The translations under genes were made by a program, and so were the position numbers. A DNA stretch of 64,000 nucleotides from Candidatus Blautia faecipullorum (GTDB lineage: Bacteria; Bacillota; Clostridia; Lachnospirales; Lachnospiraceae): assembly GCA_019115125.1 (NCBI GenBank), contig DXEG01000036.1, positions 62,001 to 126,000 of the forward strand. Reading direction: 5' to 3'. A model generated the notes under the pieces. That model searched no databases. It had not been told where the DNA came from and saw only the letters and a program-made list of their open reading frames with translations. Below are positions 37,662 through 60,078 of this stretch, one piece after another (the first letter of the stretch is position 1; the number at the start of each line of letters is the position of its first letter).

Positions 37662-37979
37662 ATGGTATTTAACACAGGAGCAGCTCTTCTGGACGCCATC
37701 GTTCTGGCGGTTGTGTCCAAGGAGGAAGAGGGAACCTACGGATATAAGATCACCCAGGATGTCCGCGGAGTTCTGGATGTATCAGAGTCCACGCTGTATC
37801 CGGTGCTTCGGAGACTGCAGAAGGACGAATGTCTGGAAACCTACGATATGGCTTATGCGGGGCGGAACCGCAGGTACTATAAGCTGACAGAAAAAGGAAC
37901 CGCACAGTTGAATTTATACAGGGTGGAATGGAAAAACTATTCCTCTAAAATCACCAGGCTATTCGAGGGAGGATTGTGA
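37662..37979 (+). CDS. PadR-family transcriptional regulator
   Basis: A 105-residue winged-helix repressor: LDAIVLAVVSKEEEGTYGYKI, then VSESTLYPVLRRLQKDECLE and RNRRYYKLTEKGTAQL, the full PadR-like signature. It heads an operon with DUF1700 and DUF4097 proteins, a common arrangement in Firmicutes in which the set responds to membrane or envelope stress. GAAGAGGAAGTGAG precedes ATG 37662. Its own promoter carries repeats suggestive of autoregulation, and the 33-base dyad lies in its leader. Confidence 0.94.
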   Translation: MVFNTGAALLDAIVLAVVSKEEEGTYGYKITQDVRGVLDVSESTLYPVLRRLQKDECLETYDMAYAGRNRRYYKLTEKGTAQLNLYRVEWKNYSSKITRLFEGGL

Positions 37980-37981
37980 TT

Positions 37982-38716
37982 ATGAACAGAGCGCAGTTTA
38001 TGGAACAGTTGGAAAAACTGCTTTCTGATATCTCAGAGGATGAGAGGAGGGAAGCGCTGGATTACTATGAGAGCTATTTTGACGAGGCGGGACCGGAGCG
38101 TGAAGCCTCAGTGATCCAGGAGCTTGGAAGTCCCGGAAAGGTAGCCGCCATTATCAAGGCGGATCTGAGGGAACACGGAGAATATACAGACAGCGGCAGC
38201 TATGAGGATAAGGCGCGGGAGTCTGGACAGATGCCGGGGAGAGACTTCCAGGGAAAAGAAGAGCAGAGACGGAGTACTGCAGCCTCCGGCTCAGACAGAG
38301 CGGAGCGTGGATACCATCCCAAACCGAAGAGGGGGTCGGGCACCATTGTACTGATCATCATTCTTCTGATCTTCCTGTCTCCCTTCCTGACCGGCAGCAT
38401 CGGCGGCATCCTGGGAGTACTTGCAGTGATCCTGTTTCTTCCGTTTATCATTGTATTTGGCGTAGGGGCGTTGGTGATCGGCCTTCTGATCGGCGGAGTA
38501 GTAACGATATTCGCGTCAATCGGCGCCTGCGCGGCGGCTCCGGCCATGGGAGTGCTGGGGATCGGCGTGGGATGTATCCTGACCGCGGTGTCTCTGATCG
38601 GCCTGGTATTTCTGGTATGGTTTGCCAGCCGGCTGCTTCCGGGGGCGCTGAGGTGGTTTACGGATCTATGCGGCAGGATTCTTAACAGAGGAAGAAGAGG
38701 AGGTGCGGACGCATGA
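37982..38716 (+). CDS. DUF1700 membrane protein
   Basis: A 244-residue protein. The N-terminal DUF1700 helices (FMEQLEKLLSDISEDERREALDYYESYFDEAG) are followed by a polar stretch and four hydrophobic helices (residues about 120-230) rich in Gly and Ile. GGGAGG nine bases before supports ATG 37982 rather than the GTG at 37976. Three bases after padR and overlapping the next gene by four, so fully coupled. DUF1700 proteins act as partners of PadR and DUF4097 proteins in envelope-stress modules; mechanism unknown. Confidence 0.9.
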   Translation: MNRAQFMEQLEKLLSDISEDERREALDYYESYFDEAGPEREASVIQELGSPGKVAAIIKADLREHGEYTDSGSYEDKARESGQMPGRDFQGKEEQRRSTAASGSDRAERGYHPKPKRGSGTIVLIIILLIFLSPFLTGSIGGILGVLAVILFLPFIIVFGVGALVIGLLIGGVVTIFASIGACAAAPAMGVLGIGVGCILTAVSLIGLVFLVWFASRLLPGALRWFTDLCGRILNRGRRGGADA

Positions 38717-39609
38717 GAAAATTTTCTAAAGTTGCGCTGATCACCGCGGCGGCGCTGGGAATTGCGGGAATCGGATTTTCCGCGGGAGGCGCGGCTATGG
38801 GAGCTTCCCTTTCAGAACTGGATCTGCAGCAGTATTATGACGGCCCGCGCCTGCATTTTCTGGAGAGATGGCTGGACTGGGACTGGGACGACTGGGATGA
38901 GGAAGAGCACCACGAAGAGGAGTCAGAGCATTATGCCAGCCGCAGCGGAACGGCGGTTTCGGCGCAGACGGAAGGTACGGACGGAGAGAAGTACAGCCTG
39001 GCGGTTCCCTCGGAGCTGGATATAGAGCTGACCTACGATGAACTGATCCTGCGGGAATATGAAGGCGGGAAGGTGCAGGTGGAGGTTACAGGAGACGAGG
39101 ATGGAAATGTTAAAGTCTATACAGAGGACGGCGAGCTGAAGATTGAGAGCAGAAAGAAAGCCAAGCGCAGACGTATTGTGGTGTCCTGTCCGCCGGACAC
39201 GGAATTCCGCAAAGTAGGGATCGATGTGGACGCGGGAGCCGTCTCTGTGGAAAGTCCTCTGTCTGCCGGGGAATTCAGCGTGTCAGTAGGAGCGGGAGTC
39301 TTTTCCGGCGTCTCCTCGGTGACAGCCACGGATGCTGAGGTGGAGGTGGGAACAGGAACCCTTACCATGAAGAATCTGGATGCGGAAAATATCGACGCGG
39401 AATGTGGGCTTGGCACTATGGAGCTTACCGTAAAAGGCCGGGAGGAGGACTATAGCTACCGGCTTTCCTGCGGCGCGGGAAGCGTGGAGCTGGGCGAAGG
39501 GGAATACAGCGGCGTGGGAGCTGTGAAAAAGATCGACAACCCGAACGCGTCCCGGAAAATGCAGCTTCAGTGCGGCATGGGAACTGTAAAAGTCAGCTTT
39601 GAGGAGTAG
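38713..39609 (+). CDS. DUF4097 beta-helix protein, membrane anchored
   Basis: A 298-residue protein starting with a membrane segment (VALITAAALGIAGIGFSAGGAAMG) and an acidic, Trp-rich neck (WLDWDWDDWDEEE). Residues about 95-298 are a right-handed beta-solenoid of DUF4097/LiaG-type repeats (VDAGAVSVESPLSAGEFSVS, VGTGTLTMKNLDAENID, CGAGSVELGEGEY). ATGA overlap with the DUF1700 gene. It probably faces outward on the membrane and works in the same stress module as the PadR gene. Confidence 0.9.
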   Translation: MRKFSKVALITAAALGIAGIGFSAGGAAMGASLSELDLQQYYDGPRLHFLERWLDWDWDDWDEEEHHEEESEHYASRSGTAVSAQTEGTDGEKYSLAVPSELDIELTYDELILREYEGGKVQVEVTGDEDGNVKVYTEDGELKIESRKKAKRRRIVVSCPPDTEFRKVGIDVDAGAVSVESPLSAGEFSVSVGAGVFSGVSSVTATDAEVEVGTGTLTMKNLDAENIDAECGLGTMELTVKGREEDYSYRLSCGAGSVELGEGEYSGVGAVKKIDNPNASRKMQLQCGMGTVKVSFEE

Positions 39610-40381: not shown

Positions 40382-41182
40382 TCAATTATTTCTATGGCTG
40401 TTTCGATAATCTCTGGGAGACATGTGGTATTTCTCCCGAAAAACCCGGTTAAAAGTCCGCTGACTGCTAAAACCCGCATTTTCATAGGCTTCTGTAATGG
40501 TCTGGTCTGTATGGCAAAGTATATTGCAGGCATGATCCAGACGGATGTTGTTCAGATAGGTGTTGAAATTACAGTGGAAGGTCCCTGAAAATACCCGTGA
40601 TAAAACATACGGACTATAACCAAGATCGGCTGCCATTTGAGCCAGAGAAATATCTTCCATATAATGTGAAGCAATGTATGTAACTGTCTGATAGATAATA
40701 TCATCACTTCCAACAGAACTCTTATCTACAAGTTGAAAAAGAGGTAATGCACGTGCAAGTATAATCTGTGTGTATGATTGCCATAAAACATGAGTCTGCT
40801 CTTCTCCCGGCAAGCACCGGAGCAGACTGTCCATTGCATATTTAATATCTTGATGAACCAAAGAGGATCTGATAACAGGCAAATCTGGACAAAATTTCTG
40901 TAAGGTTTGAAGATAACCGCCTGAGAGCGAGGGCGAGGATAAAAGATAGATTCCCTGACAGGCTTTGCTGTCAAACACCTGATAATGATGGATCAATTCA
41001 GGAAAAACGATAGCAAAATCATGGGTTTCCATATGATACAGATTTAATCCTACGCCTAGTTCAAGTGTTCCCTCTGTTACATAAACACATTCCAGTGACT
41101 TGTGAAGATGAGGGGGAATATGAACAGAAGGACCCTTGAATATTTCTAAATTGTCTTTTACATTCTCATATAATGGCATCAT
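40382..41182 (-). CDS. AraC-family regulator, left border of the glycoside locus
   Basis: A 266-residue cupin plus AraC protein: HIPPHLHKSLECVYVTEGTLEL near the N-terminus, then the double helix-turn-helix (ISLAQMAADLGYSPYVLSRVF and ITEAYENAGFSSQRTFNRVF). Start is set at the ATG at 41182, with AAAGGAG about 12 bases upstream; the frame is open to a TTG at 41236 that has no ribosome site. Divergent to the 29-residue ORF and the GH3 at 41730. Another candidate regulator of the locus, or a sensor for a separate sugar. Confidence 0.87.
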   Translation of the reverse strand: MMPLYENVKDNLEIFKGPSVHIPPHLHKSLECVYVTEGTLELGVGLNLYHMETHDFAIVFPELIHHYQVFDSKACQGIYLLSSPSLSGGYLQTLQKFCPDLPVIRSSLVHQDIKYAMDSLLRCLPGEEQTHVLWQSYTQIILARALPLFQLVDKSSVGSDDIIYQTVTYIASHYMEDISLAQMAADLGYSPYVLSRVFSGTFHCNFNTYLNNIRLDHACNILCHTDQTITEAYENAGFSSQRTFNRVFREKYHMSPRDYRNSHRNN

Positions 41183-41257
41183 AATCTTTGGAAGCTCCTT
41201 TGCAAAAATTGGCTGTTTTTGAATGCAATCTGGCAAGCATTATCAGTACAGCCGGAC

Positions 41258-41293: not shown

Positions 41294-41383
41294 ATGATTA
41301 AAGCAATCAAACATTTTATGAAAGACACATTCGAGTTTTATCTCAAGCTGTACGAAAATAATTATCGGTACTGTTCGAGGTAA
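41294..41383 (+). CDS. 29-residue small protein of unknown function
   Basis: A short ORF reading MIKAIKHFMKDTFEFYLK and ending LYENNYRYCSR. It has an unusually strong ribosome site (AAAAGGAGGTGAAAAAA) right before the ATG, a TATAAT box upstream and its own terminator downstream, which together argue for real translation. The first half can form an amphipathic basic helix and the tail is aromatic and polar with a single Cys; there is no signal peptide. It is located between two regulators and a GH3 gene and could be a regulatory peptide, a small membrane-active protein or a toxin-like peptide. I do not recognise a family. Confidence 0.6.
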   Translation: MIKAIKHFMKDTFEFYLKLYENNYRYCSR

Positions 41384-41453: not shown

Positions 41454-41633
41454 AATTGCATTATTCTCTCGAAATGCCTTTGAATTTTTTGGAAAAGAAG
41501 TCAATAAGGCTTACTTTTACTAAATAGTATCATCTGTAATATAAATGATATTGCAGAATACTTCTTATAAATGTAAAATTCTTTTTTGCTTTTCCACATT
41601 ATTGAGTAGAATTTTGGATTCTATAGATACTAA

Positions 41634-41687
41634 TTTACAATTTTATCCGCTATTTTGAAAGATTCTCCAGCGCACTCCTGATAAAAT
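41634..41687 (+). promoter_or_regulatory. AraC-type activated promoter, site C (GH3 gene 41730)
   Basis: TTTACAATTT (41634-41643), eight bases, ATTTTGAAAGATT (41652-41664), and TAAAAT as -10 (41682-41687). Second half-site lies over the -35 position. Same spacing as at 45448 and 50414. Confidence 0.75.
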
Positions 41688-41729
41688 ACCTGCAGTAATT
41701 GAACTTTTGCAGAAAGGAGAGAATGCTTT

Positions 41730-44156
41730 ATGGAACTTCAGAAATACGAACAGGAGCATCTGGATATACTGCGCTCGCTCCTCCCGGAGTGCACGGTCCT
41801 TCTTAAAAAGAATGGAGATTTTCCGCTGGGAACCCCGGGGAAGATCGCCCTGTATGGTAATGGAGTGCGCAAGACGATAAAAGGAGGAACCGGATCCGGC
41901 GAGGTGAACTCCCGGTTTTTTGAAACAGTAGAGGATGGATTTCAGAAAGCAGGGTTTGAAATTGTTTCCGGAGACTGGCTTGACGCTTATGACAAAATAT
42001 ATGCTAAAGCGCAGGCTGATTTCACAGAAGAAATCCGAAAAAGAGCGAAGGAGCACAACACTCACCCTGTGATTGAAGGAATGGGAGCAGTGATGCCGGA
42101 ACCGGAATATAATCTGCCGCTGAATGTAAAAGGTGAGACAGCTGTGTATGTTCTGGCAAGGATATCAGGAGAGGGAAATGACAGAGAAGCGTCGGAAGGG
42201 GACATTTTCCTGACCGAAAGTGAAAAACGGACAATCCTTGAACTGAACCGACAGTACAGAAGGTTTTTGCTGGTGCTCAATGTCGGCGGGGTGGTAGATC
42301 TTTCACCTGTCATGGAAGTGGAGAATATTCTGATCCTTTCGCAGCTGGGTGTACAGACAGGCAGCGCTCTTGCGGAGCTTGTCCTTGGAAAAACATATCC
42401 ATCCGGAAAATTGACGACTACATGGACAAAATGGGAGGATTATCCTGACTTTGCGTCATTTGGCGAACAGGACGATACCCGGTATCAGGAAGGGATTTAT
42501 GTGGGATACCGCTATTTTGACAGTGTGGGGAAAGAGGTACTGTTTCCGTTTGGATACGGTGGCTCTTATACGGATTTTGAAGTCCATTTCAAGAGCCTGA
42601 TACTGGATAAAATGGCTGCTGAAATAAGCGCAGAAGTGGAGAATATAGGTGATTTCTGCGGGAAAGAGGTCGTACAGTTGTACGTCTCTATGCCGGAAGG
42701 AAAGCTGGATCAGCCTTATCAGGCTCTTGCTGCATGGAAAAAAACGGAAGAATTGAAATCGGGGGAAAAACAGACGGTTAAGCTTTCATTTTTACTGACA
42801 GATCTGGCGTCTTACGATGAAGAACAGGCAGCGTGGATTCTTGAGAAAGGGGAGTATATCCTCCGCCTGGGGAGCAGCAGCAGAGATACGGAGGTCTGCG
42901 GTGTCATATCAGTGCCGGAGACGTTGGTTACGAAATCTGTAAAGAACTGTTTTGGGAAAACAGATTTTACAGACTGGAAACCGGAAATAAAAAGGAAGAA
43001 AAGTTCGGGAACGGTAATACACTCTCTGGAAGCAGATATTTCCGGCATGGATATAGTAAAAGTAGTCTATGAACAAAAGGATGAGCCGGCGCCGGAGATT
43101 AAGGGGCTTTCTAATGAGGAACTGATCCGCCTGAACGTAGGTGCTTTCGCTGCGGGAGACGGAGTGACAGGCATCATAGGCAATGCTTCCATGTCTGTTG
43201 CAGGCGCGGCAGGCGAGACGGCAAAAGTGGGAGAAATCCCAGTGATCGTTATGGCAGACGGCCCGGCAGGCCTGCGGCTTTCTCAAAAGTGCTTCAGGGA
43301 TGAGAACGGGGTACATAGTCTGGAGAGTACAATGCCGGAGACAATGCAGAATCTTCTGACCGAGGATGAGCGCGCATATATGAACAGCATGATTCCGCAG
43401 CCCGGAGAGAACAGCAAGATTTATGAGCAGTATGCGACGGCAATTCCTATCGGTACAGCAATCGCCCAAAGCTGGAATCCATTTCTTGCAGAACGCTGCG
43501 GAGATATCGTAGGAAGCGAAATGAAGCGCTTCGGCATTCATCTGTGGCTGGCTCCGGCTCTGAATATCCATCGGTCGATACGCTGCGGCAGAAATTATGA
43601 ATATTTTTCAGAAGATCCGCTGATAAGCGGCGTATTCGCGGCAGCGCTTACGAAAGGGGTGCAGAGTCATCCCGGGTGCGGGGTTACCATCAAACATTTT
43701 GTGGCGAATAATCAGGAGACAAACCGGTATAACAATAACAGCGTAGTAAATGAACGTGCCCTGAGAGAAATCTATCTTAAGGGTTTTGAGATTTGTGTTC
43801 GTCTGGCACGGCCGAAAGCTTTGATGACTTCGTATAATTTACTGAACGGCATGCATACCTCTGAACGGAAGGACCTGTTAGCGGATGTGCTCCGCAGTGA
43901 ATTTGGATTCAAAGGAATCGTAATGACAGACTGGGTAACATCCTCTGATATATTGAGCGCCGGTGCAAAATATCCGCCACCCGAGGCATACAAGGTGGCT
44001 CTCGCCGGAAATGACCTGTTTATGCCGGGAAGCCAGCAGGAAGTTGATAATCTTTCGGAGGCGCTCAAAGACGGGCTTATCACAAGAGAAGACTTAATGA
44101 GAAATACCACCCGTATTTATCGGATGGCAATGGAACTCTCAGGTGCTTTAGTTTGA
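41730..44156 (+). CDS. GH3 beta-glycosidase with permuted domain order
   Basis: An 808-residue GH3 enzyme in which the domains are swapped. The alpha/beta sandwich comes first (LPECTVLLKKNG, ALYGNGVRKTIKGGTGSG, to about residue 270), then a fibronectin-III-like domain (about 275-395), a linker and finally the catalytic TIM barrel (about 455-800). The nucleophile is D734 in GIVMTDW, and NIHRSIRCGRNYEYFSEDP and GVTIKHFVANNQE are intact. This arrangement is known from Butyrivibrio and Ruminococcus beta-glucosidases. No signal peptide, so cytoplasmic. AGAAAGGAGAGAATG precedes the start. Preceded by an AraC-type activated promoter shared with two other units. Likely beta-glucosidase; sugar specificity unproven. 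Confidence 0.9.
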   Translation: MELQKYEQEHLDILRSLLPECTVLLKKNGDFPLGTPGKIALYGNGVRKTIKGGTGSGEVNSRFFETVEDGFQKAGFEIVSGDWLDAYDKIYAKAQADFTEEIRKRAKEHNTHPVIEGMGAVMPEPEYNLPLNVKGETAVYVLARISGEGNDREASEGDIFLTESEKRTILELNRQYRRFLLVLNVGGVVDLSPVMEVENILILSQLGVQTGSALAELVLGKTYPSGKLTTTWTKWEDYPDFASFGEQDDTRYQEGIYVGYRYFDSVGKEVLFPFGYGGSYTDFEVHFKSLILDKMAAEISAEVENIGDFCGKEVVQLYVSMPEGKLDQPYQALAAWKKTEELKSGEKQTVKLSFLLTDLASYDEEQAAWILEKGEYILRLGSSSRDTEVCGVISVPETLVTKSVKNCFGKTDFTDWKPEIKRKKSSGTVIHSLEADISGMDIVKVVYEQKDEPAPEIKGLSNEELIRLNVGAFAAGDGVTGIIGNASMSVAGAAGETAKVGEIPVIVMADGPAGLRLSQKCFRDENGVHSLESTMPETMQNLLTEDERAYMNSMIPQPGENSKIYEQYATAIPIGTAIAQSWNPFLAERCGDIVGSEMKRFGIHLWLAPALNIHRSIRCGRNYEYFSEDPLISGVFAAALTKGVQSHPGCGVTIKHFVANNQETNRYNNNSVVNERALREIYLKGFEICVRLARPKALMTSYNLLNGMHTSERKDLLADVLRSEFGFKGIVMTDWVTSSDILSAGAKYPPPEAYKVALAGNDLFMPGSQQEVDNLSEALKDGLITREDLMRNTTRIYRMAMELSGALV

Positions 44157-45344
44157 CCGGCCTTTGGTCTGTTTCCGGTATTGGAGCGGCGTGACGCCGT
44201 ATTGCTTTTTGAATACATTCTGAAAATAGGACTGGCTGGAAAAGCAGAGATAGCTGCTGATTTCAGCCAGTGTTTTTTCACTGTGGGTCAAAAGACTCTT
44301 AGCTTCCTCAAGTTTGCAGCGCATAATGTAAGCGCCGATGTGGATGCCGAGCTCATTTTTGAAATGCTTCATCATATAAGAACTGCTGCGGTTTACATGT
44401 GCCGCAGCATCTTCCACAGATATGGATTCGTTGGTATGGCTTCGTATATAAGTCATACATGCATATACATCCGGTGAAACGTCCTCCGGGATGTGGCATT
44501 CACCGCAGCGCTGGCAGAAATCCATGACCATGACATACATCAGGTGATTGATCTCATCAATGGTCTGGAGCTGTTCGCATTCCTGAATGTAATAATCAAC
44601 CAGCTGGTAGGTCTTTTCGATATCAACTCCTCCCGGGATTGCTCCCATACTTCCAACTTTGGCGGCTGTAGTGATAAAAAGATTTTTTGTGTGACGAAGG
44701 GGAGACTGAGCCATCTTGCCTTCTTTTAATGCAAGTCTGCTGCCGGCAAAGAATTTTTTCAGTTTTGCAGGATCTCCTTCCTTGATACGCTGGTACATTT
44801 CCAGTTCAAAATAGTAAGTATTGTGGTTGTTTTCTTCCTCCTGATCTGTGATCATGTTGTCGATATGGCGGGTCTTCCGATGTCTGGTATAAATTTCGTC
44901 TTCTTGAAGAAGTAGCTGAAGATCCACAGTTTTATTGTTCAGGCATTGATGAAAGAAGATGAGATATCTTGCAAACTGCATATGGCTTGTCCTTGGAATC
45001 GAGCACAGTAGTTCTGTAAGCTGTTCGCGCAGGGAGAGAGACATGGACAGTTCCCGCATGAACTGGCGGATCAGTTCTTCCGTGACAGGCACGTTAAATA
45101 CCGGACCCAAGAAAAGGTCATATCCCGTACCTTCAATCTGTACCCGGCCGTACTCGATATCAGGGGAATCGCCGCAGAAGCAGGGATTCTGGGAAGGATT
45201 TGCGTCGAACAACTCACGGTGATATTCAGAAAGAATGTTCAGGGTTTCTCCAAGAGCAGAATATACCGCATCTCCGTTTTGGGTCAGGCTGACAGGGATA
45301 TTCGTGGCGGAAAAGAAATTTCTGCATAAAGAAATATAATCCAT
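44148..45344 (-). CDS. AraC-family regulator, probable activator of the glycoside regulon
   Basis: A 398-residue regulator longer than usual for AraC. Residues 1-290 form a sensor region without a cupin signature; it contains helical blocks (YYFELEMYQRIKEGDPAKL, AKLKKFFAGSRL) and several Cys. The last 100 residues hold the two helix-turn-helix motifs (ISVEDAAAHVNRSSSYMMKHF and LAEISSYLCFSSQSYFQNVF). AAAGGAACTG precedes the start on the minus strand. Tail-to-tail with the permuted GH3 (nine-base overlap) and divergent to the GH gene at 45580. It sits between two of three promoters that carry the same direct repeat, which makes it the best candidate to bind them. Confidence 0.88.
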   Translation of the reverse strand: MDYISLCRNFFSATNIPVSLTQNGDAVYSALGETLNILSEYHRELFDANPSQNPCFCGDSPDIEYGRVQIEGTGYDLFLGPVFNVPVTEELIRQFMRELSMSLSLREQLTELLCSIPRTSHMQFARYLIFFHQCLNNKTVDLQLLLQEDEIYTRHRKTRHIDNMITDQEEENNHNTYYFELEMYQRIKEGDPAKLKKFFAGSRLALKEGKMAQSPLRHTKNLFITTAAKVGSMGAIPGGVDIEKTYQLVDYYIQECEQLQTIDEINHLMYVMVMDFCQRCGECHIPEDVSPDVYACMTYIRSHTNESISVEDAAAHVNRSSSYMMKHFKNELGIHIGAYIMRCKLEEAKSLLTHSEKTLAEISSYLCFSSQSYFQNVFKKQYGVTPLQYRKQTKGRSN

Positions 45345-45447
45345 TCGTTTCAGTTCCTTTCATCGACCGCGCATGGCGCGGAAATTTCATAAGCAGTATT
45401 CTTTGCATCTAGTATAATTCCGGTTCATGGAAAAAACAAGATTCCAA

Positions 45448-45501
45448 TTTACAATTTCGGAAAGAATTTTGCAATATTTTAAGAGCTTCGCATGGTAGTA
45501 T
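45448..45501 (+). promoter_or_regulatory. AraC-type activated promoter, site A (genes 45580-50405)
   Basis: TTTACAATTT (45448-45457), eight bases, ATTTTGCAATATT (45466-45478), and TAGTAT as -10 (45496-45501). No -35 hexamer; the half-site takes its place. Confidence 0.75.
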
Positions 45502-45579
45502 GTGCTCAGTTAAGCTGATATAGCATGACGGGGAAACAAGAAGAGAAAAAATGAATGTCTGAAAAAGGAGGAAAACACG

Positions 45580-48012
45580 ATGAAACAGCGTATATGTATC
45601 CACAAGACGGAGCCGAACAAAGGAATCCTTAATTATTCCCATTTATTAGACGCCCCGGCCGGAAAGCATGGTTTTGTGGAGACAAGGAAAGGACATCTCT
45701 ATTTTACAGATGGAACAAGAGCTAGATTTCTCGGATTTAATGTAGCCGCAAGATCCAACACGCCGGATCATGAGACAGCAGATAAACTGGCGGAGCGTTT
45801 TGCAAGTATGGGCGTCAATATTATTCGGCTTCACGCAGCGGACGCTCCGGTCGGTGAAGAACCGGGAAGCTGGAGCAGCTGTAAGGAAGCGCCTCTTCTG
45901 GATTACGCGTCAGGGACGAGCAGGAAATTTAATCCGGAAGGGCTGGACCGCTTTGACTATTTTGCCGCAAAGCTGAAGGAGAAGGGGATTTATCTCCACA
46001 TTGACCTGATCGTAGCAAGGGAATTTCAGGAGGGAGACGACATGGATTACCCGGGCGGAGCACCTTCCTGTCTGAAACGCTACTTTATGTACAATGAACG
46101 GGCGATCCAGCTTCAAAAAGAGTATGCGAAGCAGCTTCTCTGCCATGTGAATCCGTATACAGGACTTGCCTTGATTGATGATCCGGCCGTGGTGACAATC
46201 CAGATCAATAACGAGGAGACTGCCATCAAAGGAAATATGGGGGCGGATGCGGGAGAAGAACTGAAACCTTACAGGGAGGAAGTCCAGAGACGGTTCAATG
46301 AGTTCCTTCTGATGAAATATTATACAAGAGAACGTCTGAAAGAGGCGTGGACTCATGAAGGATGCTGTGCATTGGGCGAGGATGAAGATCCGGCGCAGGG
46401 AACGGTACGTGTGATCGAGGGTAGCTTCTACCAGCCGGTGAATGATCCGGAGAGCCAGTGGGATGCGCCGGAGAGCCCGGCCAGATATGCGGACTTTATG
46501 GAATTTGGTATCTATATGAACCGCAAGTTTTATCAGGATATGAAAGATTATATTCATTCGCTGGGCTCGAAAGTCCCGATTGTTACAAGTAATCTGATCG
46601 CAGGGGCGGCAGATGTATACGGACACACCGACGGAGATCTGATGGAGAATAACAGCTATTTCAATCATCCGCTTCTGCCGGTACAGGATAATACTTATCT
46701 GGTGGCAGGTCCGGCTGAGTATGTATCAGCGAATCCGCTGACGATGCAAAAGGGGATCGGCTCTATGGCGACAACTCTTTTGAGCCTTGCGTCTGTTGCT
46801 ATTGTTGGGGGAAAGCCGTTTATGCTCAGTGAGTGGAATGAATACGGGGAGCATCCGTTCCACTCTACGGCATTTGTACATACCGTAGCATACGCCTGCT
46901 TAAATGACTGGGATGGCCTGATTCTCTACAACCATCATACATCGGAACACTGGGACGACCAGCCGGCGGATGAGATCTTGAATGTGTTTGACGTGTACAA
47001 TGACCCGGCAGTGATCTGCCAGTGGGGATTTATGGCGTCTGTCTTTCTGAAAGGGCTTGTCTCCGTGGCGAAACACTGCGTAGATGTTGTCTACACACAG
47101 AACGACTTGAAAACACTGCCTCTCTTCCATGCTATGCCGACCACTTTTTTCCCATATATTACGTCTATGCGCAATGTATTTCTGGATGGAGGAGACAGCT
47201 ACCAGGGCAATGCGGACATAGCGGTAAATGCCGGATTCTTAAATGGCGCTGATCTCTCAGATGCGGAACATGGCGTATATTATGCATGGTCTGAGTACAG
47301 GGATGCGTTCCGGCGTTATAAAGAGGAAAACCGTCTGGCAAATGCTGCGAAAGACACGAAAGAGATTCAGCCGGGAGTGCATCTTGGAGAAAAAGCACTT
47401 GTGTTTGACCAGATCAGAGAGACAGCGGACAACGGAGATTACCGGACGTTTGCTGAAATCATGGATCGTGCGATGAAAGAGTGGGGAATTTTGCCGGAAG
47501 ATGCGGGCTATGTGGAAGGGAAAATGGTTTCCGATACAAAAGAAATCGTTTTTGATCCGGATCACGCACGGTTCTCTATCCGCACGCCTTACTGCGGATA
47601 TTTCAGCGGCGCGCCGGAAAAAGAAATTGCCCTTTCTGATAAGATTTCTGTGGAGGCGGAAAACGAAAGGATCACACTGGCCCTGATCGCAAAAGATGAA
47701 ATTAGGATGAATGGCGCGTCAGAATATATTTTGACGGCAATGGGTACAACCGGTATGGACGAGACAACATTTGGACAAGGTCCGGAGATGATGGGCGTGC
47801 CGTTTGCCGCTGTAGCATTTAAAGGAAAACTTTACGCAGAGACACTGGAGGGCTGCATCCGGGTGAAGGCGGAGAATGCCAGAATAGAGGTGCTAAGTCC
47901 AGTTGGTGAAGTGATCGCTGAACTGAACGGGGAGAAGGCCGGAGATGAGATCCGGTTCACAAAGGACGGCTCTGTTCCGGGTATCCAGTACAGACTTGTG
48001 GTCAGTGAATAA
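45580..48012 (+). CDS. Clan GH-A glycoside hydrolase, GH5-like, substrate unknown
   Basis: An 810-residue cytoplasmic protein (no signal peptide). Its first 450 residues form a TIM barrel of the retaining clan GH-A type: GFNVAARSNTPDHETADKLA with ASMGVNIIRLHAAD opens the barrel, the acid/base is the Glu in TIQINNEET (about residue 213) and the nucleophile the Glu in FMLSEWNEYG (about residue 415). The rest is a set of beta-rich domains. It resembles cellulase-family proteins annotated only as hypothetical glycosyl hydrolases and I cannot give a family number. AAAAAGGAGGAAAACACG precedes the ATG; 59 bases to the phosphorylase gene, so the two are one unit under site A. Confidence 0.8.
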   Translation: MKQRICIHKTEPNKGILNYSHLLDAPAGKHGFVETRKGHLYFTDGTRARFLGFNVAARSNTPDHETADKLAERFASMGVNIIRLHAADAPVGEEPGSWSSCKEAPLLDYASGTSRKFNPEGLDRFDYFAAKLKEKGIYLHIDLIVAREFQEGDDMDYPGGAPSCLKRYFMYNERAIQLQKEYAKQLLCHVNPYTGLALIDDPAVVTIQINNEETAIKGNMGADAGEELKPYREEVQRRFNEFLLMKYYTRERLKEAWTHEGCCALGEDEDPAQGTVRVIEGSFYQPVNDPESQWDAPESPARYADFMEFGIYMNRKFYQDMKDYIHSLGSKVPIVTSNLIAGAADVYGHTDGDLMENNSYFNHPLLPVQDNTYLVAGPAEYVSANPLTMQKGIGSMATTLLSLASVAIVGGKPFMLSEWNEYGEHPFHSTAFVHTVAYACLNDWDGLILYNHHTSEHWDDQPADEILNVFDVYNDPAVICQWGFMASVFLKGLVSVAKHCVDVVYTQNDLKTLPLFHAMPTTFFPYITSMRNVFLDGGDSYQGNADIAVNAGFLNGADLSDAEHGVYYAWSEYRDAFRRYKEENRLANAAKDTKEIQPGVHLGEKALVFDQIRETADNGDYRTFAEIMDRAMKEWGILPEDAGYVEGKMVSDTKEIVFDPDHARFSIRTPYCGYFSGAPEKEIALSDKISVEAENERITLALIAKDEIRMNGASEYILTAMGTTGMDETTFGQGPEMMGVPFAAVAFKGKLYAETLEGCIRVKAENARIEVLSPVGEVIAELNGEKAGDEIRFTKDGSVPGIQYRLVVSE

Positions 48013-48071
48013 ACACAGTTTCCAGAAGAATGTTTTGAGATTACAAAATAATAAAACAGGAGATTGAAGGA

Positions 48072-50405
48072 ATGATGAATTCTGAGTCAACGAAACGTGC
48101 GGAAAATGCACTGTATGAGTTTACACCGGACGGCAACAGCTGCCGGATCTATAAGGCGGAGACGCCCCGCTACTGGTACAATTACCTGTGGAATGAAGAC
48201 CGTTACTGCGCTCAGATATCGCAGGTAGGACACGGGCGCAGCTATTATCTTAGTGAAAAGGCAGATATGTGCATGATCAACCGGGATGATGCCAGATATG
48301 TATATTTAAGAGATGATGCAGACGGAACATGCTGGAATATCGGGAAGGGACCGCTTAACACAGAGGTGGAAGACTATTCCTGTACTCACAGCATCGGCTA
48401 TACACAGATTCATTCAAAGAAAAATGGAATTGAGGGGTCGTGGAGGATCTTTGTGCCGAAGAAAGGCTTTCATGAGGTGTGGACACTGAAACTTCGCAAT
48501 ACAGCAGAGCAGGAGAAAAGGTTAAACATGTTCTCTGCGGTCAGTTTCTATCTGGAAGGCTTCTCTTACCCCAGATACTACGAAATGTACCGCTGCATGA
48601 AGACAGAATTCAAACGGGAACTGAACGGGATTTACTGTGATTCCGCCCATCCCTTTGCTCCTCATGAACTGTATCATGGTTTTCTGGCCTCATCGGAGCC
48701 GGTTTATGCATGGGACGGTGACCTGACAAAGTTCTGCGGATCCACAAGCACGCTGACATTACCGGATGCTTCTGCCTGCGTCCTGTTCCAGAGACCGGAT
48801 ATTGTCGTGCAGGGAAGAGACTGTACCAACTCCGAAGCCTCGTTGTTCATTCTTGGCGGTGTGCTGCAGCATAAAATCACACTGATGCCGGGAGAGGAGA
48901 AAGAGATTCAGGTTGTATTCGGAATCAGTTCTTCCTGTGAAGAGGCATGCAGTGTAGTGAGGAGGTATGCAGATGCAGAATCCACAGAACAGGAGTTTGC
49001 AGAGGCGGAGGCGTATAATTATGAGAAGATCAGCTCTTTGTCTGTGAAAACACCGGACCAGAAGATTAATTATATGATGAACAACTGGGTGAAAAAGCAG
49101 GCGGATTTCTGTATCGTAGGAAAGAAAGGTGTCCGTGATAACCTGCAGATCTCTGCAGCGCTGCTGAATTACCGTCAGGAGAAAGCAAAAGAAGAAATCC
49201 TGGAATGTCTGCGCCATCAGTTTCAGGACGGGCACGGAGTGCTTACATGGTATCCCTATGATGATACGCGTTATTCAGATCAGCCATTCTGGATTATCTG
49301 GGCGGTGTGCGAACTGATCAAAGAGACGGGGGATCTGTCAATTCTTGATACGGAGATTGAATGGCAGGACGGCGGTAAAGCATCCGTGCTGGAGCATGTG
49401 AAGGCTGCGGTCAGCCGCCTGATCCTTGACAAAGGGGAGCACGGCTTGGTGAAGATTTATTTCGCCGACTGGAATGACGCCTTGAATATCACGGATGATC
49501 CGGAGGCAGAGTCCGTGATGCTGTCCCACCAGTTCTGTCTTGCACTGAGAGAATTAAAGAGAATGATGGAGTACGCGGGCAATACACAGTATGCCGGATT
49601 TCTTGAGAAAGAATATGAACAGCTAAAGGAAGATATCAACCGTTATGCGTGGGATGGAAAATGGTACGCGAGAGCCCTAAGCAGCAAAGGAAACGTAGGG
49701 GCACAGGACAGCATCGGAAGTAAGATCTATCTGAACGCTCAGACATGGGCTGTGCTGGCAGGAGTCGCGGACAGAGAAAGATTGACTTATGTGTTGGAAG
49801 CTGTGGACAGTATGGAGCAGGATTTCGGCTTCCCCTTAAATCTGCCGCCATACCAGGAGTATGATGCCCATGTGGGAAGGATGTCCGGGATGCTGCCGGG
49901 TCTTTTTGAGAACGGCGGAGTGTACTGCCATGCTACCGGTTTTAAGATCCTCATGGACTGCTGTACGGGCAGAGGGGAAAAAGCGTTGAAAACACTGAAA
50001 AAAATCATGCCCGACAGCGAAGAGAACCCGTCGGCGCAGTCAGGGGCAGAACCCTATGTTTTTACCAACTGCTATTCTACGAACCCGGGATATTACGGGA
50101 AATCTTATCAGTCCTGGACTACAGGGACTTCCGCGTGGTGCATGATGGGGCTGTATGAGGGGATCCTGGGCGTGAAACGCGACTATGCCGGGCTTAGGAT
50201 CAGTCCCTGTTTTCCGGAAGAATGGGAAGAGGCAGAAGTGACAAGACAGTTTAGAAATGCGGATTATCATATTATCATCCGCAATCCCGAACATATTAAG
50301 AAGGGAAAAGCTGAGGTTTATGCTGACGGTGTTATCTGCGATTTTGGGCTGATACCAGACTATCAGGACGCTAAGCAGCATACGATAGAAGTTTTTATAA
50401 AATAA
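48072..50405 (+). CDS. GH94-type disaccharide phosphorylase
   Basis: A 777-residue enzyme of the GH94 fold. N-terminal beta-sandwich (YLRDDADGTCWNIGKGPLNTE), helical linker, (alpha/alpha)6 barrel with KKGVRDNLQISAALLNY, the catalytic loop FADWNDALN (D466-W-N-D469), and the conserved tail WTTGTSAWCMMGLYEGILGV and LRISPCFPEEWEEAEVTRQF. GH94 enzymes split beta-linked disaccharides with phosphate to give glucose-1-phosphate plus a sugar, saving one ATP. The substrate-defining residues differ from cellobiose phosphorylase in places (GVRDN for GARDQ), so it may prefer another beta-glucoside. No signal peptide. GGAG lies nine bases before the ATG. Confidence 0.87.
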   Translation: MMNSESTKRAENALYEFTPDGNSCRIYKAETPRYWYNYLWNEDRYCAQISQVGHGRSYYLSEKADMCMINRDDARYVYLRDDADGTCWNIGKGPLNTEVEDYSCTHSIGYTQIHSKKNGIEGSWRIFVPKKGFHEVWTLKLRNTAEQEKRLNMFSAVSFYLEGFSYPRYYEMYRCMKTEFKRELNGIYCDSAHPFAPHELYHGFLASSEPVYAWDGDLTKFCGSTSTLTLPDASACVLFQRPDIVVQGRDCTNSEASLFILGGVLQHKITLMPGEEKEIQVVFGISSSCEEACSVVRRYADAESTEQEFAEAEAYNYEKISSLSVKTPDQKINYMMNNWVKKQADFCIVGKKGVRDNLQISAALLNYRQEKAKEEILECLRHQFQDGHGVLTWYPYDDTRYSDQPFWIIWAVCELIKETGDLSILDTEIEWQDGGKASVLEHVKAAVSRLILDKGEHGLVKIYFADWNDALNITDDPEAESVMLSHQFCLALRELKRMMEYAGNTQYAGFLEKEYEQLKEDINRYAWDGKWYARALSSKGNVGAQDSIGSKIYLNAQTWAVLAGVADRERLTYVLEAVDSMEQDFGFPLNLPPYQEYDAHVGRMSGMLPGLFENGGVYCHATGFKILMDCCTGRGEKALKTLKKIMPDSEENPSAQSGAEPYVFTNCYSTNPGYYGKSYQSWTTGTSAWCMMGLYEGILGVKRDYAGLRISPCFPEEWEEAEVTRQFRNADYHIIIRNPEHIKKGKAEVYADGVICDFGLIPDYQDAKQHTIEVFIK

Positions 50406-50413
50406 GGATGAAA

Positions 50414-50467
50414 CTTACAATTTTGTAAATTATTTTACAATAATTATCTTTAGAAAAACAGTATAGT
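50414..50467 (+). promoter_or_regulatory. AraC-type activated promoter, site B (genes 50503-61617)
   Basis: CTTACAATTT (50414-50423), eight bases, ATTTTACAATAAT (50432-50444), and TATAGT as -10 (50462-50467). Identical spacing to sites A and C. Confidence 0.77.
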
Positions 50468-50502
50468 AAACCTATCATCAATGACACAGGAGGAGAGGAA
50501 AA

Positions 50503-51933
50503 ATGGCAAAGGATAAGAACGCCCCCCGTTATGACAAACAAGGCGCAAGGCGCGTGATGCGCAAAAGAGATTATCTGGCAGATTTTGGCGGACAGCTCGC
50601 ATTAGGACTGATGGCGAATCTGGTCGGACAGCTCAATTATTTCTACACGGACAAGGTAGGACTGGCTGTCGGAAGCGTTGGTATTGTACTGGCAATCTCA
50701 AAGGTGGTCGATGCATTTACGGATGTAATTGCAGGGAATCTGATTGATCATTCAAAGGGCGGCGACCATAAATATTTCAGGTGGATCCTGCCGCAGATCA
50801 TTCCGGCGGCGCTGATCATGATCCTGATGTTTACCGTACCGATCCAGGCAGGACAGATTCCGGGCATAATCTACGCATTGGTTACGAACCTGGTGCTGTC
50901 AGCAGGTCTTTACACCTTTATCGCGACCCCGTTTTCAGCAGTTATGACTGTACGAAGCAGAAGCCTGAGCGAGAGGGGAAGTATCGGGCTGTTCCGTGCG
51001 GTTGCCAATTATGGCGCGGGAATGCTGATCTCCATTCTTACGATCCCGGTGACAAATATGCTGGGCGGCACACAGTCCGCATGGATCAAATACGGCGTGG
51101 TGCTTGGCGTAATGGTATTCGTCCTGTTTTCAATCTGCTGCCATAATGGACGCAAAGCCAAGTTTGCATGTGATTACGAAGAAGAAGAAACGGAAGGTGC
51201 CGCTGAGGAAGAGGAAGAGCCGGTTCCTTTTAAAGAGGCAATGACCATGCTTCTGAAGAATAAATACTGGGTGATCATCCTGCTCTTTAACCTGATCACA
51301 AGTGTTACGAGCGGTATCGCGGCATCCGGCGGTACATACTACTGTAAATGGATTTTCGGGAATGATAATCTGGTCGGATTAATCGGAGCAGCAGGTATGC
51401 TGGCTACTGTAGTGGGATTCCTTTTATCAAAGCCAATCATTGCCGGGCTTGGAATCAAGAGGACAATTTCTATTGGTCTGCTGGGAGCGGCGATACTCGC
51501 AGGCATCCGCTGTTTTATACCAACGAACTTTACTGTTTATGTAGTGACCAGCCTCTTAGGAAGTTTTGTGCAGATTCCAATGATGAGCCTGTACGGGGTA
51601 CTGACATCCATGACCATTGATTACAATGAGTGGAAATATGATAAGAAACTGGTGGCAATGTCAGGCGGCGCGATCGGCTTTGGCAGCAAGGTAGGAAATG
51701 GTCTTGGAGCAGCAGTCCTGTCGGCGTTTCTGGCAATCGGAGCATATGATGCCACGCTGGAAGTCGCAAGTACATCCATGACATATTCCATTTATGGATT
51801 CTCAAATTATCTTCCGGTTGTGATCAATCTTGTGATGTTCGTGATCTTCCTGAAATTTGATCTGGAAGAAAAGCTGCCGAAGATGCGCGAGGAGATTGCT
51901 GCGCGCAGAGCAGGAAAGGGCATTGAAAAATAA
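50503..51933 (+). CDS. GPH-family sugar/glycoside cation symporter
   Basis: A 476-residue transporter with twelve predicted membrane helices. The family marks are DVIAGNLIDHSKGGDHKYFR in the loop between helices 2 and 3 and TSMTIDYNEWKYDKK (the D-Y-x-E-x-x-T/K motif) in the C-terminal half. GPH symporters import disaccharides, glucuronides or plant glycosides with Na+ or H+. AGGAGGAGAGGAAAA precedes the ATG. It is the only transporter in the locus and heads the longest unit, so it sets which substrates the enzymes see. Confidence 0.93.
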   Translation: MAKDKNAPRYDKQGARRVMRKRDYLADFGGQLALGLMANLVGQLNYFYTDKVGLAVGSVGIVLAISKVVDAFTDVIAGNLIDHSKGGDHKYFRWILPQIIPAALIMILMFTVPIQAGQIPGIIYALVTNLVLSAGLYTFIATPFSAVMTVRSRSLSERGSIGLFRAVANYGAGMLISILTIPVTNMLGGTQSAWIKYGVVLGVMVFVLFSICCHNGRKAKFACDYEEEETEGAAEEEEEPVPFKEAMTMLLKNKYWVIILLFNLITSVTSGIAASGGTYYCKWIFGNDNLVGLIGAAGMLATVVGFLLSKPIIAGLGIKRTISIGLLGAAILAGIRCFIPTNFTVYVVTSLLGSFVQIPMMSLYGVLTSMTIDYNEWKYDKKLVAMSGGAIGFGSKVGNGLGAAVLSAFLAIGAYDATLEVASTSMTYSIYGFSNYLPVVINLVMFVIFLKFDLEEKLPKMREEIAARRAGKGIEK

Positions 51934-51990
51934 GAAAAAAAGATATTAGCAAGAAGCAGGCAAAGCTGAAAGAAATGTTGTAACTATGAG

Positions 51991-52024
51991 AGCCGGCGCT
52001 TCCGTCGGAACCGGAGCGCCGGCT
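51991..52024 (+). other. Strong hairpin after the symporter, without U-tract
   Basis: AGCCGGCGC (51991-51999) pairs with GCGCCGGCT (52016-52024), with inner TCCG/CGGA pairs. Followed by TGAGTT, so not a clear terminator; more likely an mRNA stabilising or processing element that separates symporter from enzyme expression. Confidence 0.6.
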
Positions 52025-52082
52025 TGAGTTATAGGCAAAAATAGGAATGGGAAGAGAGATAGGCAGAAAGGAGAAGGCAAGA

Positions 52083-54827
52083 ATGATAATATATGATTTC
52101 AGGATAGAATACAGGGAACAACCTAAAGGACTGGCTGTGGAGATACCCCGTTTTTCATGGAAGATCGCATCTGGTGACAACAATGTGGTGCAGACAGCAT
52201 GGCATCTGATTGTGGACAGTGCGGGAAAATGCTTCTGGGACAGTGGAAAGGTTGAGAGTGATCAGTCTGTGCTGGTTCCTTATGCCGGACAAGCGCTTAC
52301 CAGAGAACAGGAGTATCAGGTTTCTCTCGAAATCTGGGACAATTATGGAAATAGAGCAAAAGCAGAGACGTCTTTTACAACAGGTGTTTTTGATACCAGG
52401 GATTTTCAGGCCAAAATGATCACACATGATTTCCCTCCTGAGGAAACGGCGTGTCCGATATTCTTCCGGAAATTTTCTCTGGACAAGGAAGTATCATCTG
52501 CCTGCCTTTACGCCACGGCGCTTGGTGTCTATGAAATCACCCTGAATGGAAAAAGGGTAGAAGACTATTGCATGGCACCCGGCTGGACAGATTATCATAA
52601 GATTTTGCAGTATCAATATTATGATGTGACAGACAGGCTGCAAGGGGCAGGACAGGAAAATGTTCTGAAATTGACCGTGGGCAACGGCTGGTATAAAGGG
52701 ATTCTCAGCTTTGACTGTAAGCCGGACCGATATGGGGATCGGACTGCCGTGTGGGCAGAGCTCCATGTGCGTTATAAAGATGGGACGGAAGAGGTGATTG
52801 CGACCGATGAGACCTGGGGCGTTCGAACCGGACAGATCCGTTACAGCGAGATCTACATGGGAGAGATGATTGATACAAATGCCCCTGATATCAGAGAGGG
52901 AAAGGTGTCTTCCGTGCCGGAAGCCGTATTTCATCCAACTGTATTGACGCCGCAGCTAAATGAACCAGTACGGGTGACAGAGCGCTTGAAAGCAAAGAGG
53001 GTTTTCACGGATTCCAAAGGGAATATACTTGTAGATTTCGGACAGAACCTTACAGGTCTTGTAGAAGTGAGGATTCAGGGGGAAAAAGGTCAGAAGGTCA
53101 CTGTCCGGCATGCGGAAACCCTGGATCAGTACGGCGTATTTTACCCGGATACTCTGCGAACGGCAAAGTCCGAGGATATTTATATTCTAAACGGGGAAGA
53201 ACAGGTTCTGATGCCCCACTTTACATTCCATGGCTTCCGGTATGCTGCCGTGGAGGGAATAGAGAACCCTGAACCGGAAATGTTTACCGCCTGCGTAATG
53301 CATTCAGACATGAGAAAGACCGGGCAGTTCCACTGTTCCAATGAAAAAGTAAACCAGCTCCAGAGCAATATTTCCTGGAGTCTGCGTGACAATTTCTTCG
53401 ATATTCCATCCGACTGTCCGCAGAGAGATGAACGGCTTGGATGGACGGGGGATGCGCAGGTCTTCTCATGGACAGCAGCATTCAACCGGGAGACGGCTCT
53501 GTTTTTTACAAAATGGATGAGGGATGTATCGGCAGCATCTTCGAAAGAAAAAGGCGTGCCCCATATAGTGCCTGATATCCAGGGAACGTACAGTTCCGCA
53601 GCATGGAGTGACGCAGCGGTGATCATACCGTGGGTAGTTTATCAGACCTATGGGGACACACGTATTTTAGAAGAATCCTGGAAATGTATGCACGAGTGGG
53701 TGGACTATATTCACAATCACGTAAATGAAAACGGGCTGTGGATGACCAATTACCAGTATGGCGACTGGCTGGCGCTGGACCGCGAAATGGGAGATAAAAG
53801 CGTAGGGGCTACAGATGTTTACTTTGTGGCAAACGCTTACTATATATACGTTACAGAGCTTGTGGCAAAGACAGCCCATGTGCTGGGGAAATATGGCGAG
53901 GCGGCATATTATGAAGTGCTCCGTGAAAAGACGCTGGACTCTTTCAGGAAAGAATATTACACCGCAAGAGGCCGGATCGTCAGTGAGACTCAGACTGCAT
54001 GTGCGCTGTCTCTATATTTTAACCTGGCATATGAAAAGGACAGGGAAAAGATTGTACAGATGCTGGTGAGCAATATAGAAGATCATCAGAATCATCTGAC
54101 TACAGGATTTGTAGGAACGCCCTATTTATGCCATGCCCTGTCTGAGAACAAAGCTCATGATACTGCCGGACTCCTGTTTATGAGAGAGGATCTGCCCTCA
54201 TGGCTGTATGCCGTGAATAAGGGAGCAACGACACTTTGGGAGAGGTGGGACGCCATCCTGCCAGACGGCACTATGCAGGATCCGGGGCTTAATTCTATGA
54301 ACCACTATGCAAATGGAGCGATCGGCGATTGGATGTATCGGAAAATCGGCGGTATAAATCAGACGGAAGCCGGATACAGGAGATTTTATGTAAAACCGAT
54401 GTTTGTAATGGGAATCGAAGAGGCAAGGACAGAGCTGGAGTCTCCTTACGGAAAGATTGTTTCCTGCTGGAGCTGCCGCAAGGGAAAGATCCGGGTGGAA
54501 GTCAGCGTGCCTGCCAATACGAGGGCAGAGCTGTTTCTGCCGGAAAAAGAGGAATCCTTTGAGGTGGGATCGGGAACGCATGTATATGAATATGACACAA
54601 ACACAAGTTTAAAAGAGCTGAAATTCACTCTGGACAGTACATTTGGAGAGATTCTGGACGAACCTCTCGGCATGAAAATGATGGAAGAGATGGTACCGGA
54701 ACTTGTGCACAATCCGATAATCGAATACGCAAGGAGGATGACGCTTGCAGAGGGAATCAGCTCTGCACCGGAGATCCGAAAGGTTTATGAAGCCGTGCTA
54801 AAAGAATTGAATGGACAGTGTGAATGA
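52083..54827 (+). CDS. GH78 alpha-L-rhamnosidase
   Basis: A 914-residue rhamnosidase that releases terminal rhamnose by inversion. Start ATG 52083 follows GAAAGGAGAAGGCA; an upstream in-frame ATG (52047) would add 12 basic residues. The order is fibronectin-like and beta-sandwich domains (FRIEYREQPKGLAVEIPRFS opens the first), then the (alpha/alpha)6 barrel with the family motif CPQRDERLGWTGD (residues about 446-458, D449 and E450) and DGTMQDPGLNSMNHYANGA, and a C-terminal beta-domain. No signal peptide: acts on imported rhamnosides such as rutinose- or neohesperidose-type groups. Second gene of the symporter unit. A tail of about 60 residues (LGMKMMEEMVPELVHNPI) after the beta-domain resembles a helical extension seen in some homologues. 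Confidence 0.93.
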   Translation: MIIYDFRIEYREQPKGLAVEIPRFSWKIASGDNNVVQTAWHLIVDSAGKCFWDSGKVESDQSVLVPYAGQALTREQEYQVSLEIWDNYGNRAKAETSFTTGVFDTRDFQAKMITHDFPPEETACPIFFRKFSLDKEVSSACLYATALGVYEITLNGKRVEDYCMAPGWTDYHKILQYQYYDVTDRLQGAGQENVLKLTVGNGWYKGILSFDCKPDRYGDRTAVWAELHVRYKDGTEEVIATDETWGVRTGQIRYSEIYMGEMIDTNAPDIREGKVSSVPEAVFHPTVLTPQLNEPVRVTERLKAKRVFTDSKGNILVDFGQNLTGLVEVRIQGEKGQKVTVRHAETLDQYGVFYPDTLRTAKSEDIYILNGEEQVLMPHFTFHGFRYAAVEGIENPEPEMFTACVMHSDMRKTGQFHCSNEKVNQLQSNISWSLRDNFFDIPSDCPQRDERLGWTGDAQVFSWTAAFNRETALFFTKWMRDVSAASSKEKGVPHIVPDIQGTYSSAAWSDAAVIIPWVVYQTYGDTRILEESWKCMHEWVDYIHNHVNENGLWMTNYQYGDWLALDREMGDKSVGATDVYFVANAYYIYVTELVAKTAHVLGKYGEAAYYEVLREKTLDSFRKEYYTARGRIVSETQTACALSLYFNLAYEKDREKIVQMLVSNIEDHQNHLTTGFVGTPYLCHALSENKAHDTAGLLFMREDLPSWLYAVNKGATTLWERWDAILPDGTMQDPGLNSMNHYANGAIGDWMYRKIGGINQTEAGYRRFYVKPMFVMGIEEARTELESPYGKIVSCWSCRKGKIRVEVSVPANTRAELFLPEKEESFEVGSGTHVYEYDTNTSLKELKFTLDSTFGEILDEPLGMKMMEEMVPELVHNPIIEYARRMTLAEGISSAPEIRKVYEAVLKELNGQCE

Positions 54828-60062: not shown

Positions 60063-60078
60063 AAAGGGGAATAATGGA

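Follow-up and report, generated by a model that had tools for sequence, protein, structure and literature searches.

Four putative AraC-type operators with a fixed -10 distance at a glycosidase locus of Candidatus Blautia faecipullorum

The window analysed here, a 64,000-nucleotide (nt) stretch of contig DXEG01000036.1 (positions 62,001 to 126,000) from the Lachnospiraceae member Candidatus Blautia faecipullorum, carries a series of glycosidase genes around an AraC-family regulator gene at 44148-45344. We describe a repeated sequence element found at four sites (A to D) of this locus, and its probable link to that regulator. The genes and sites are listed below in window coordinates, where GH stands for glycoside hydrolase and aa for amino acids.

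40382 to 41236, minus strand: AraC-family protein of 284 aa with an AraC_binding/cupin domain; possible, doubtful target of site D
41524 to 41585, minus strand: site D; half-sites 41577-41570 and 41557-41550; extended -10 TGATACTAT with hexamer TACTAT at 41529-41524
41626 to 41687, plus strand: site A; half-sites 41634-41641 and 41654-41661; extended -10 TGATAAAAT with hexamer TAAAAT at 41682-41687
41730 to 44156, plus strand: GH3-family glycosidase, unit A
44148 to 45344, minus strand: AraC-family regulator of 398 aa; DNA-binding domain at about residues 286-398, sensor part at residues 1-285
45440 to 45501, plus strand: site B; half-sites 45448-45455 and 45468-45475; extended -10 TGGTAGTAT with hexamer TAGTAT at 45496-45501
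45580 to 48012, plus strand: glycosidase-like protein of unassigned family, unit B; weak matches to GH42 (Pfam, below cut-off) and to a GH5 mannanase (PDB)
48072 to 50405, plus strand: GH94 phosphorylase, unit B; relatives are cellobiose and chitobiose phosphorylases
50406 to 50467, plus strand: site C; half-sites 50414-50421 and 50434-50441; -10 TATAGT at 50462-50467, without TG
50503 to 51933, plus strand: MFS_2 or GPH-type sugar symporter, unit C; TIGR00792 at 188.8 bits, below the cut-off of 231
52047 to 54827, plus strand: GH78 alpha-L-rhamnosidase, putative operon member of unit C
54883 to 57342, plus strand: GH3 glycosidase, putative member of unit C
57402 to 59873, plus strand: GH3 glycosidase, putative member of unit C
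60079 to 61617, plus strand: GH35-like beta-galactosidase, uncertain member of unit C, preceded by a 205-nt gap

The original prediction placed one AraC-type element at three promoters of this locus. Its starting pattern, TTTACAATTT-N8-ATTTTGCAATATT, was scanned over the 64-kb window with up to three mismatches and matched on the plus strand at 41634 (two mismatches), 45448 (none) and 50414 (three), exactly where the element had been reported, while the same search on 100 dinucleotide shuffles returned no match. The geometry was also as described. The second half-sites begin 20 base pairs (bp) after the first, at 41654, 45468 and 50434, and the -10 hexamers begin exactly 28 bp after the second half-sites, at 41682, 45496 and 50462. 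The half-site sequences held overall, but the third site begins CTTACAAT and the second half-site of site A, TTTGAAAG, is degenerate. The inventory of three promoters likewise stood but was incomplete, as it overlooked site D, the extended -10 at A, B and D, and a second regulon elsewhere in the genome, on a different contig.

We determined how far the element extends beyond the window from loci encoding relatives of the 44148-45344 protein. A scan of GTDB genomes gave 126 stretches encoding such relatives, of which the best 80 were kept, leaving 78 distinct loci. The AraC proteins in these loci are 38-81% identical to the window protein; many of the loci are labelled Lachnospiraceae or one of its genera, and some bins are labelled otherwise, for example Muribaculaceae. 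A 39-column matrix (29.2 bits) learnt from 42 of the loci (L057-L098), with the window left out, consists of one half-site, approximately GWAWWTTRYAATA, occurring twice, 20 bp apart. In the last round of training the top score in the reversed training loci was 17.9. This matrix recovered sites B (36.6), C (33.9) and A (21.7), together with site D (26.8), and a profile built from 51 sites, again with the window excluded, gave E-values of 1.7e-9 for B, 3.6e-5 for C, 3.2e-4 for D and 0.013 for A. Site D thus outscores site A by the matrix, and it keeps the identical 28-bp distance from its second half-site to the -10. The two sites lie back to back.

The 20-bp repeat is a property of these loci as a group. 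When half-sites were counted on both strands with the spacing left free, using a consensus with one mismatch that was set after viewing the matrix, 177 same-strand pairs with a 20-bp spacing were present in the 78 loci. No other spacing between 12 and 40 bp gave more than 16 (21 bp gave eight), and reversed sequence had a single pair at 20 bp. The figure of 177 is not a count of independent sites, because both strands were counted and the core is partly palindromic. Such direct half-sites about two helical turns apart are what an AraC/XylS operator would be expected to look like. A hand-made pattern for the whole site matched 68 times in the 78 loci and once in their reversed sequences. A site with TA...T beginning 28 bp after the start of the second half-site (hereafter +28) was present in 73 of the 78 loci, within 1.5 kb of the AraC gene in 64, and in eight of the nine loci (L099-L107) that were in neither matrix's training set. 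The spacing counts, and the genome scans given below, do not bear out the concern that the motif occurs equally often at random A+T-rich places.

The sites also behave as parts of promoters. Among 76 non-redundant sites found without using the -10, TA...T stood at +28 in 71, the next-best offset having 12, against a background rate of 149 in 4995 positions (3%). This concentration at +28 indicates that operator and -10 keep a single fixed distance, which is a requirement for contact with polymerase. TG occupied the extended -10 place in 48 of the 76 sites. Similar figures came from the remoter relatives (L108-L134, plus the C19 locus described below), with TA...T at +28 in 44 of 47 sites and TG in 28. 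Within the window, sites A, B and D have an extended -10 (TGN) and site C has none. The original prediction held that the second half-site replaces the -35, and the hexamers 16-18 bp upstream of the -10 indeed match TTGACA at only 0-2 of six positions at A to C, and at 0-3 of six at D. In a sigma-70 scan of 44100-62300, a stretch outside which sites A and D lie, none of the listed promoters ends in the -10 of B or C. A proximal half-site over the -35 region, a fixed distance to the -10 and no good -35 together suggest class II promoters. From the start of the -10 to the start codon there are 48 nt at A (GH3 gene), 84 nt at B (45580 gene) and 41 nt at C (symporter gene). For the AraC gene itself, inspection by eye and the same sigma-70 scan gave no convincing promoter.

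Sites in the other loci precede similar genes. A total of 147 sites in the 78 loci passed both the matrix and the -10 test, and 144 of these precede an open reading frame (ORF) of at least 100 aa within 450 nt, with a median distance of 55 nt from the -10 to the ORF start. Most of these ORFs (101 of 144) resemble the window glycosidases or symporter; the other 43 include, by eye, GH1-like and GH2-like proteins and substrate-binding lipoproteins. The target of site D is less clear, as one has to go about 290 nt to reach the start of the next minus-strand ORF in the list (40382-41236). The annotated start of this ORF is 293 nt from the start of the D -10, where the 10-90% range over the 144 sites is 36-100 nt, and it is doubtful that D serves as the promoter of this gene; the loss of the TG at D in G295 and the early end of the alignment there (see below) add to this doubt.

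Two departures from the main set were observed. AraC proteins that are only about 32-34% identical (L023, L024 and L037) are accompanied by a half-site of different sequence, TTTACTAT, which keeps both the 20-bp repeat and the -10 register, and the promoter grammar may thus be wider than the 44148 AraC subfamily. At L067:10001-11187, an AraC relative lacks the usual C-terminal helix sequence in the translated frame and its nearest site lacks the usual -10, which points to a decaying regulon or an assembly error.

We then searched the 3.50-Mb genome of the window itself. A pattern merged from A to C, with up to three mismatches, matched eight times, and its reversed control did not match; zero mismatches occurred only at the three window sites, as the construction of the pattern dictates. 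With the 51-site profile, for which 150 of 1926 first-look candidates were scored, there were 14 matches at E<=1. Nine had E<0.1, four of them in the window and five around a paralogous AraC gene at C19:20000-39000 (L179). The C19 AraC protein is 42% identical to the window protein, its five sites all have the -10 at +28, and tblastn with the window proteins located two GH78 genes, a symporter and a GH3 gene there. Both loci of this genome with profile matches at E<0.1 have an AraC of the 44148 subfamily. The original proposal of one regulon is supported by these comparisons.

Two AraC genes in the window could account for the sites, and the original prediction preferred the one at 44148-45344 and named the one at 40382-41236 as the alternative. 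Among 397 genomes of the family, 16 encode a relative of the 44148 protein at E<=1e-60. A site-plus-promoter pattern, scanned together with a control pattern that had no match, hit eight of the 397 genomes: seven among the 16 with the AraC and one (G145) among the other 381 (Fisher p 3e-10). The 40382-type AraC had 51 matches in 47 of the same genomes, and for 30 of these matches the locus was fetched, including flanks of up to 1.5 kb on each side. A site is present only at the window's own locus; none of the other 29 scores above 12.3, which is less than the reversed maximum of 17.9. Conversely, a 40382-type AraC was found in one of the 78 loci around the 44148 type. The first comparison was uneven in its flanks, which reached up to 10 kb for the 44148 type and up to 1.5 kb for the 40382 type, but with equal 1.5-kb flanks a site was present in 64 of 78 loci of the former and in none of the 29 other loci of the latter. 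As far as sequence can, this contrast decides between the two genes: the motif follows relatives of the 44148-45344 protein across genomes, and the 40382 AraC was rejected as regulator of A to C since the sites do not accompany its relatives in the fetched loci.

The regulator has the two-helix-turn-helix (HTH) DNA-binding domain of the AraC/XylS type, with HTH_18 at 67 bits (cut-off 33.6) and HTH_AraC at 66.1 bits (cut-off 26.6). Its sensor part, residues 1-285, had no Pfam match at E<=0.1, and so no AraC_binding/cupin domain at that threshold, and no PDB sequence match below E 0.3. We attempted to identify the sensor from an AlphaFold2 model (mean predicted local distance difference test score 87, predicted TM-score 0.50). 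Among the 50 of 227 Foldseek matches that were listed, the 25 at E<=0.001 were all to AraC-family proteins, and the alignments of the model that exceeded the DNA-binding domain (Rns, XylR and ToxT) had root-mean-square deviations above 7, so that identification by fold was abandoned. The best NCBIfam match, at residues 77-390, was TIGR04094, a YSIRK-targeted surface antigen transcriptional regulator, with 162.9 bits against a cut-off of 200; that family has a similar length and layout but another gene context. Rhamnose regulator equivalogs of NCBIfam were not reached (RhaS 43.5 bits against 288; RhaR 39.6, 38.9 and 33.4 against 525, 363 and 384). Within 64 genomes of the genus, no full-length relative above 41% identity was found outside the own genome, where the C19 paralogue reaches 42%. 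The nearest relative in the 397 family genomes is 66% identical and belongs to genome G295.

G295 keeps all four sites around this AraC relative. On its locus, L178, site A lies at 12712 on the minus strand (matrix score 21.5), B at 8960 on the minus strand (35.2), C at 3999 on the minus strand with an identical 31-bp core, and D at 12773 on the plus strand (26.2) with the TG lost. The conserved block ends near 41502, just past D, and the alignment stops about 22 nt beyond the D -10. Beyond this point the window has the 40382 AraC gene and G295 has, by eye, an sfsA-like fragment and recombinase-like genes, with a transposase-like gene in the same place in L057 (also by eye). The 40382-type protein of G295 (47% identical) is encoded at C1:785641, more than 1 Mb from the four sites.

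Divergence between the two loci is mosaic. Five flanking genes are 88-96% identical at the protein level and the AraC is 66% identical, with 57% over residues 1-285 and 86% in the DNA-binding domain. No blastn match was found between G295 and the window over 44847-45566; from there to about 47000 identity is 73-82%, and then mostly 85-95%. Between 44500 and 47000, the part of the AraC gene that encodes the sensor half, promoter B and the first half of the 45580 gene are thus far less similar than their flanks, as if a tract had been exchanged.

Taken together, we consider it very probable that A to D are operators of the 44148-45344 AraC, acting as a class II activator of -35-less promoters for beta-glucoside or rhamnoside use. 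Two monomers, or a dimer, would bind, on one face of the DNA, two direct half-sites of approximately GWAWWTTRYAATA that begin 20 bp from each other. With the downstream half-site standing in for the -35, the bound protein would contact RNA polymerase, which could then open a promoter with only a -10, usually an extended one (TGNTANNNT), held at a rigid distance of 28 bp from where the second half-site begins. Without the activator the promoters would be nearly silent. Site A would control the GH3 gene, B the glycosidase-like and GH94 genes, and C the symporter, GH78 and further glycosidase genes, to the extent that these form one unit behind C. Binding and activation by this AraC we infer from the sites and their distribution. 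The inducer, judged only by the gene set, is probably a beta-glucoside, a rhamnoside or a sugar freed from one, and would be sensed by the N-terminal part.

Several observations weigh against this. Site A scores weakly (21.7; E 0.013) and by itself would be insufficient, and TG is absent at C and in 28 of the 76 sites. The patterns behind the 68-versus-1 and 177-pair counts were made by hand after some sites had been inspected, and sites from related genomes are not independent. No qualifying site was found in five of the 78 loci, or within 1.5 kb of the AraC gene in 14, and nine of the 16 AraC-bearing family genomes had no match to the strict site-plus-promoter pattern. The 51-site profile also gave one to three matches at E<=0.05 in 29 of 63 other genomes of the genus, where single matches went down to 6e-4, so that its E-values are rough. 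Of 19 such loci that were fetched, two had TA...T at +28 in the best matrix hit, which is possibly not the profile's own hit, and one of these two is the AraC locus of G026.

Of the alternatives, repression by the same protein, alone or combined with activation, is unlikely but has the most to be said for it. The 44148 AraC would sit on the -35 region and block polymerase until a ligand arrives. The operator overlaps the usual place of the -35, AraC itself both represses and activates, and extended -10 promoters, which are common here, can work without a -35. A plain repressor, however, needs a working promoter, and the -35 hexamers match TTGACA at only 0-3 of six positions; moreover, the exact 28-bp spacing in 115 of 123 sites would follow from contact with polymerase but not from blocking it. 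That the 40382-41236 AraC regulates the sites is very unlikely, even though it adjoins A and D and combines an AraC-type DNA-binding domain with an AraC_binding/cupin domain. Besides the 29 fetched loci without a site and its presence in one of 78 loci, G295 retains the four sites with its 40382-type gene far away, and the own genome has a single 40382-type match at E<=1e-40, yet C19 combines five sites with an AraC of the 44148 subfamily. Still less credible is a reading in which no AraC is needed and the boxes merely serve as A+T-rich upstream elements in a common kind of promoter with an extended -10. The sites are A+T-rich, and A+T-rich background matches do occur in other genomes of the genus, but a specific RYAAT core, repeated at 20 bp, marks the half-sites and is rare in reversed sequence of the same composition, and seven of the eight genomes hit by the site-plus-promoter pattern encode the 44148-type AraC, so that the pattern is nearly confined to such genomes.

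Control by the 44148 AraC subfamily appears to come in two operator dialects. The sites of nearer relatives favour G at positions -3 and 17 and T at 30, while for distant relatives, including the C19 paralogue, the preference is for C/T at -3 and 17 and for C at 30. Of the two recognition helices, the second hardly changes between the clades and the first differs. To compare helix and base, five loci without a site, L067 (frame breaks) and the near-copies L085, L117, L118 and L133 were removed from the 78 loci, leaving 68; ten of these were not anchorable, and a rough majority rule labelled the other 58 as G (28), C/T (24) or other (6). Of the 24 C/T loci, 17 have R as the first-helix residue and seven have no R there; all but one of the 28 G loci have S, P or T. 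As a lead confounded by descent, the first helix may read -3/17; helices were assigned to boxes by reference to MarA structures.

We tentatively suggest, at somewhat less than even odds, a wider scheme. A largely Lachnospiraceae AraC subfamily with an uncharacterised sensor domain would run many separate beta-glucoside and rhamnoside regulons through one rigid grammar (a 20-bp repeat with the -10 at +28, mostly extended). Paralogues within a cell would be insulated by the base at -3/17 (G versus C/T), an equivalent position in the two half-sites, along with a change in the first helix, the second helix and the CAAT core being nearly fixed, and sensor halves would diverge or be swapped while DNA-binding halves and operators stay. 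If true, re-wiring such loci to new plant glycosides would require no new operators. Two regulons with a near-identical operator in one genome also offer a natural case for studying how paralogous AraC proteins are insulated.

Class II control of sugar genes by AraC-family proteins is textbook knowledge; the mode of control is therefore already known, and this regulon is a clear new example. E. coli AraC at araBAD likewise uses a direct-repeat operator adjoining and overlying the -35 region, with a weak or absent -35 and a fixed -10 distance, but its repeat is 21 bp as compared to 20 bp here, its half-site sequence and N-terminal domain differ, and an extended -10 is a feature of most sites described here. 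AraC-family rhamnose regulators of Bacillales, Bacteroides and Enterococcus are described, in the part of Rodionova et al. 2013 (PMC3870299) considered here, as binding direct repeats with 21-bp periodicity. They share with the window the direct-repeat control of sugar genes, and rhamnosidase genes occur in the window regulon, but their period differs from the one found here (177 pairs at 20 bp, eight at 21 bp). Gram-positive polysaccharide utilization loci of Roseburia and E. rectale (PMC5320581) and of Blautia producta (PMC10318527) have, as far as the available text of these papers goes, an AraC gene beside GH and transporter genes, as here, and the Blautia producta locus also has a GH94 gene, although both gene sets differ from that of the window. 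The same portions of these two papers contain no description of an operator or promoter structure, and the present operator is likewise absent from those of the start-site mapping in C. phytofermentans (PMC5171806), of the Caldicellulosiruptor regulons (PMC8579813) and of Rodionova et al. 2013. A search by title and opening of the abstract, with subscription papers and preprints outside its scope, found no paper describing the motif.

Judging by its sequence, this switch is found, with its exact spacing unchanged, in dozens of related gut bacteria. What had been an orphan AraC gene and a cluster of glycosidase genes thereby becomes a testable regulon, and the site-plus-promoter pattern offers a means of finding such regulons in many gut Firmicutes.

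Three further features of the window were observed near the locus. A possible small ORF of 29 codons, recognised by eye, lies at 41294-41383 on the plus strand, preceded by a strong ribosome-binding site (AAGGAGGTG) and with a terminator-like hairpin about 30 nt further on. A tandem A+T-rich repeat of 34 nt occupies 37515-37582, just upstream of a PadR - HAAS - DUF2807/DUF4097 gene set (37662-39609). Finally, a LytTR regulator and DUF3021 gene pair is found at 61798-62716, directly behind the glycosidase cluster.

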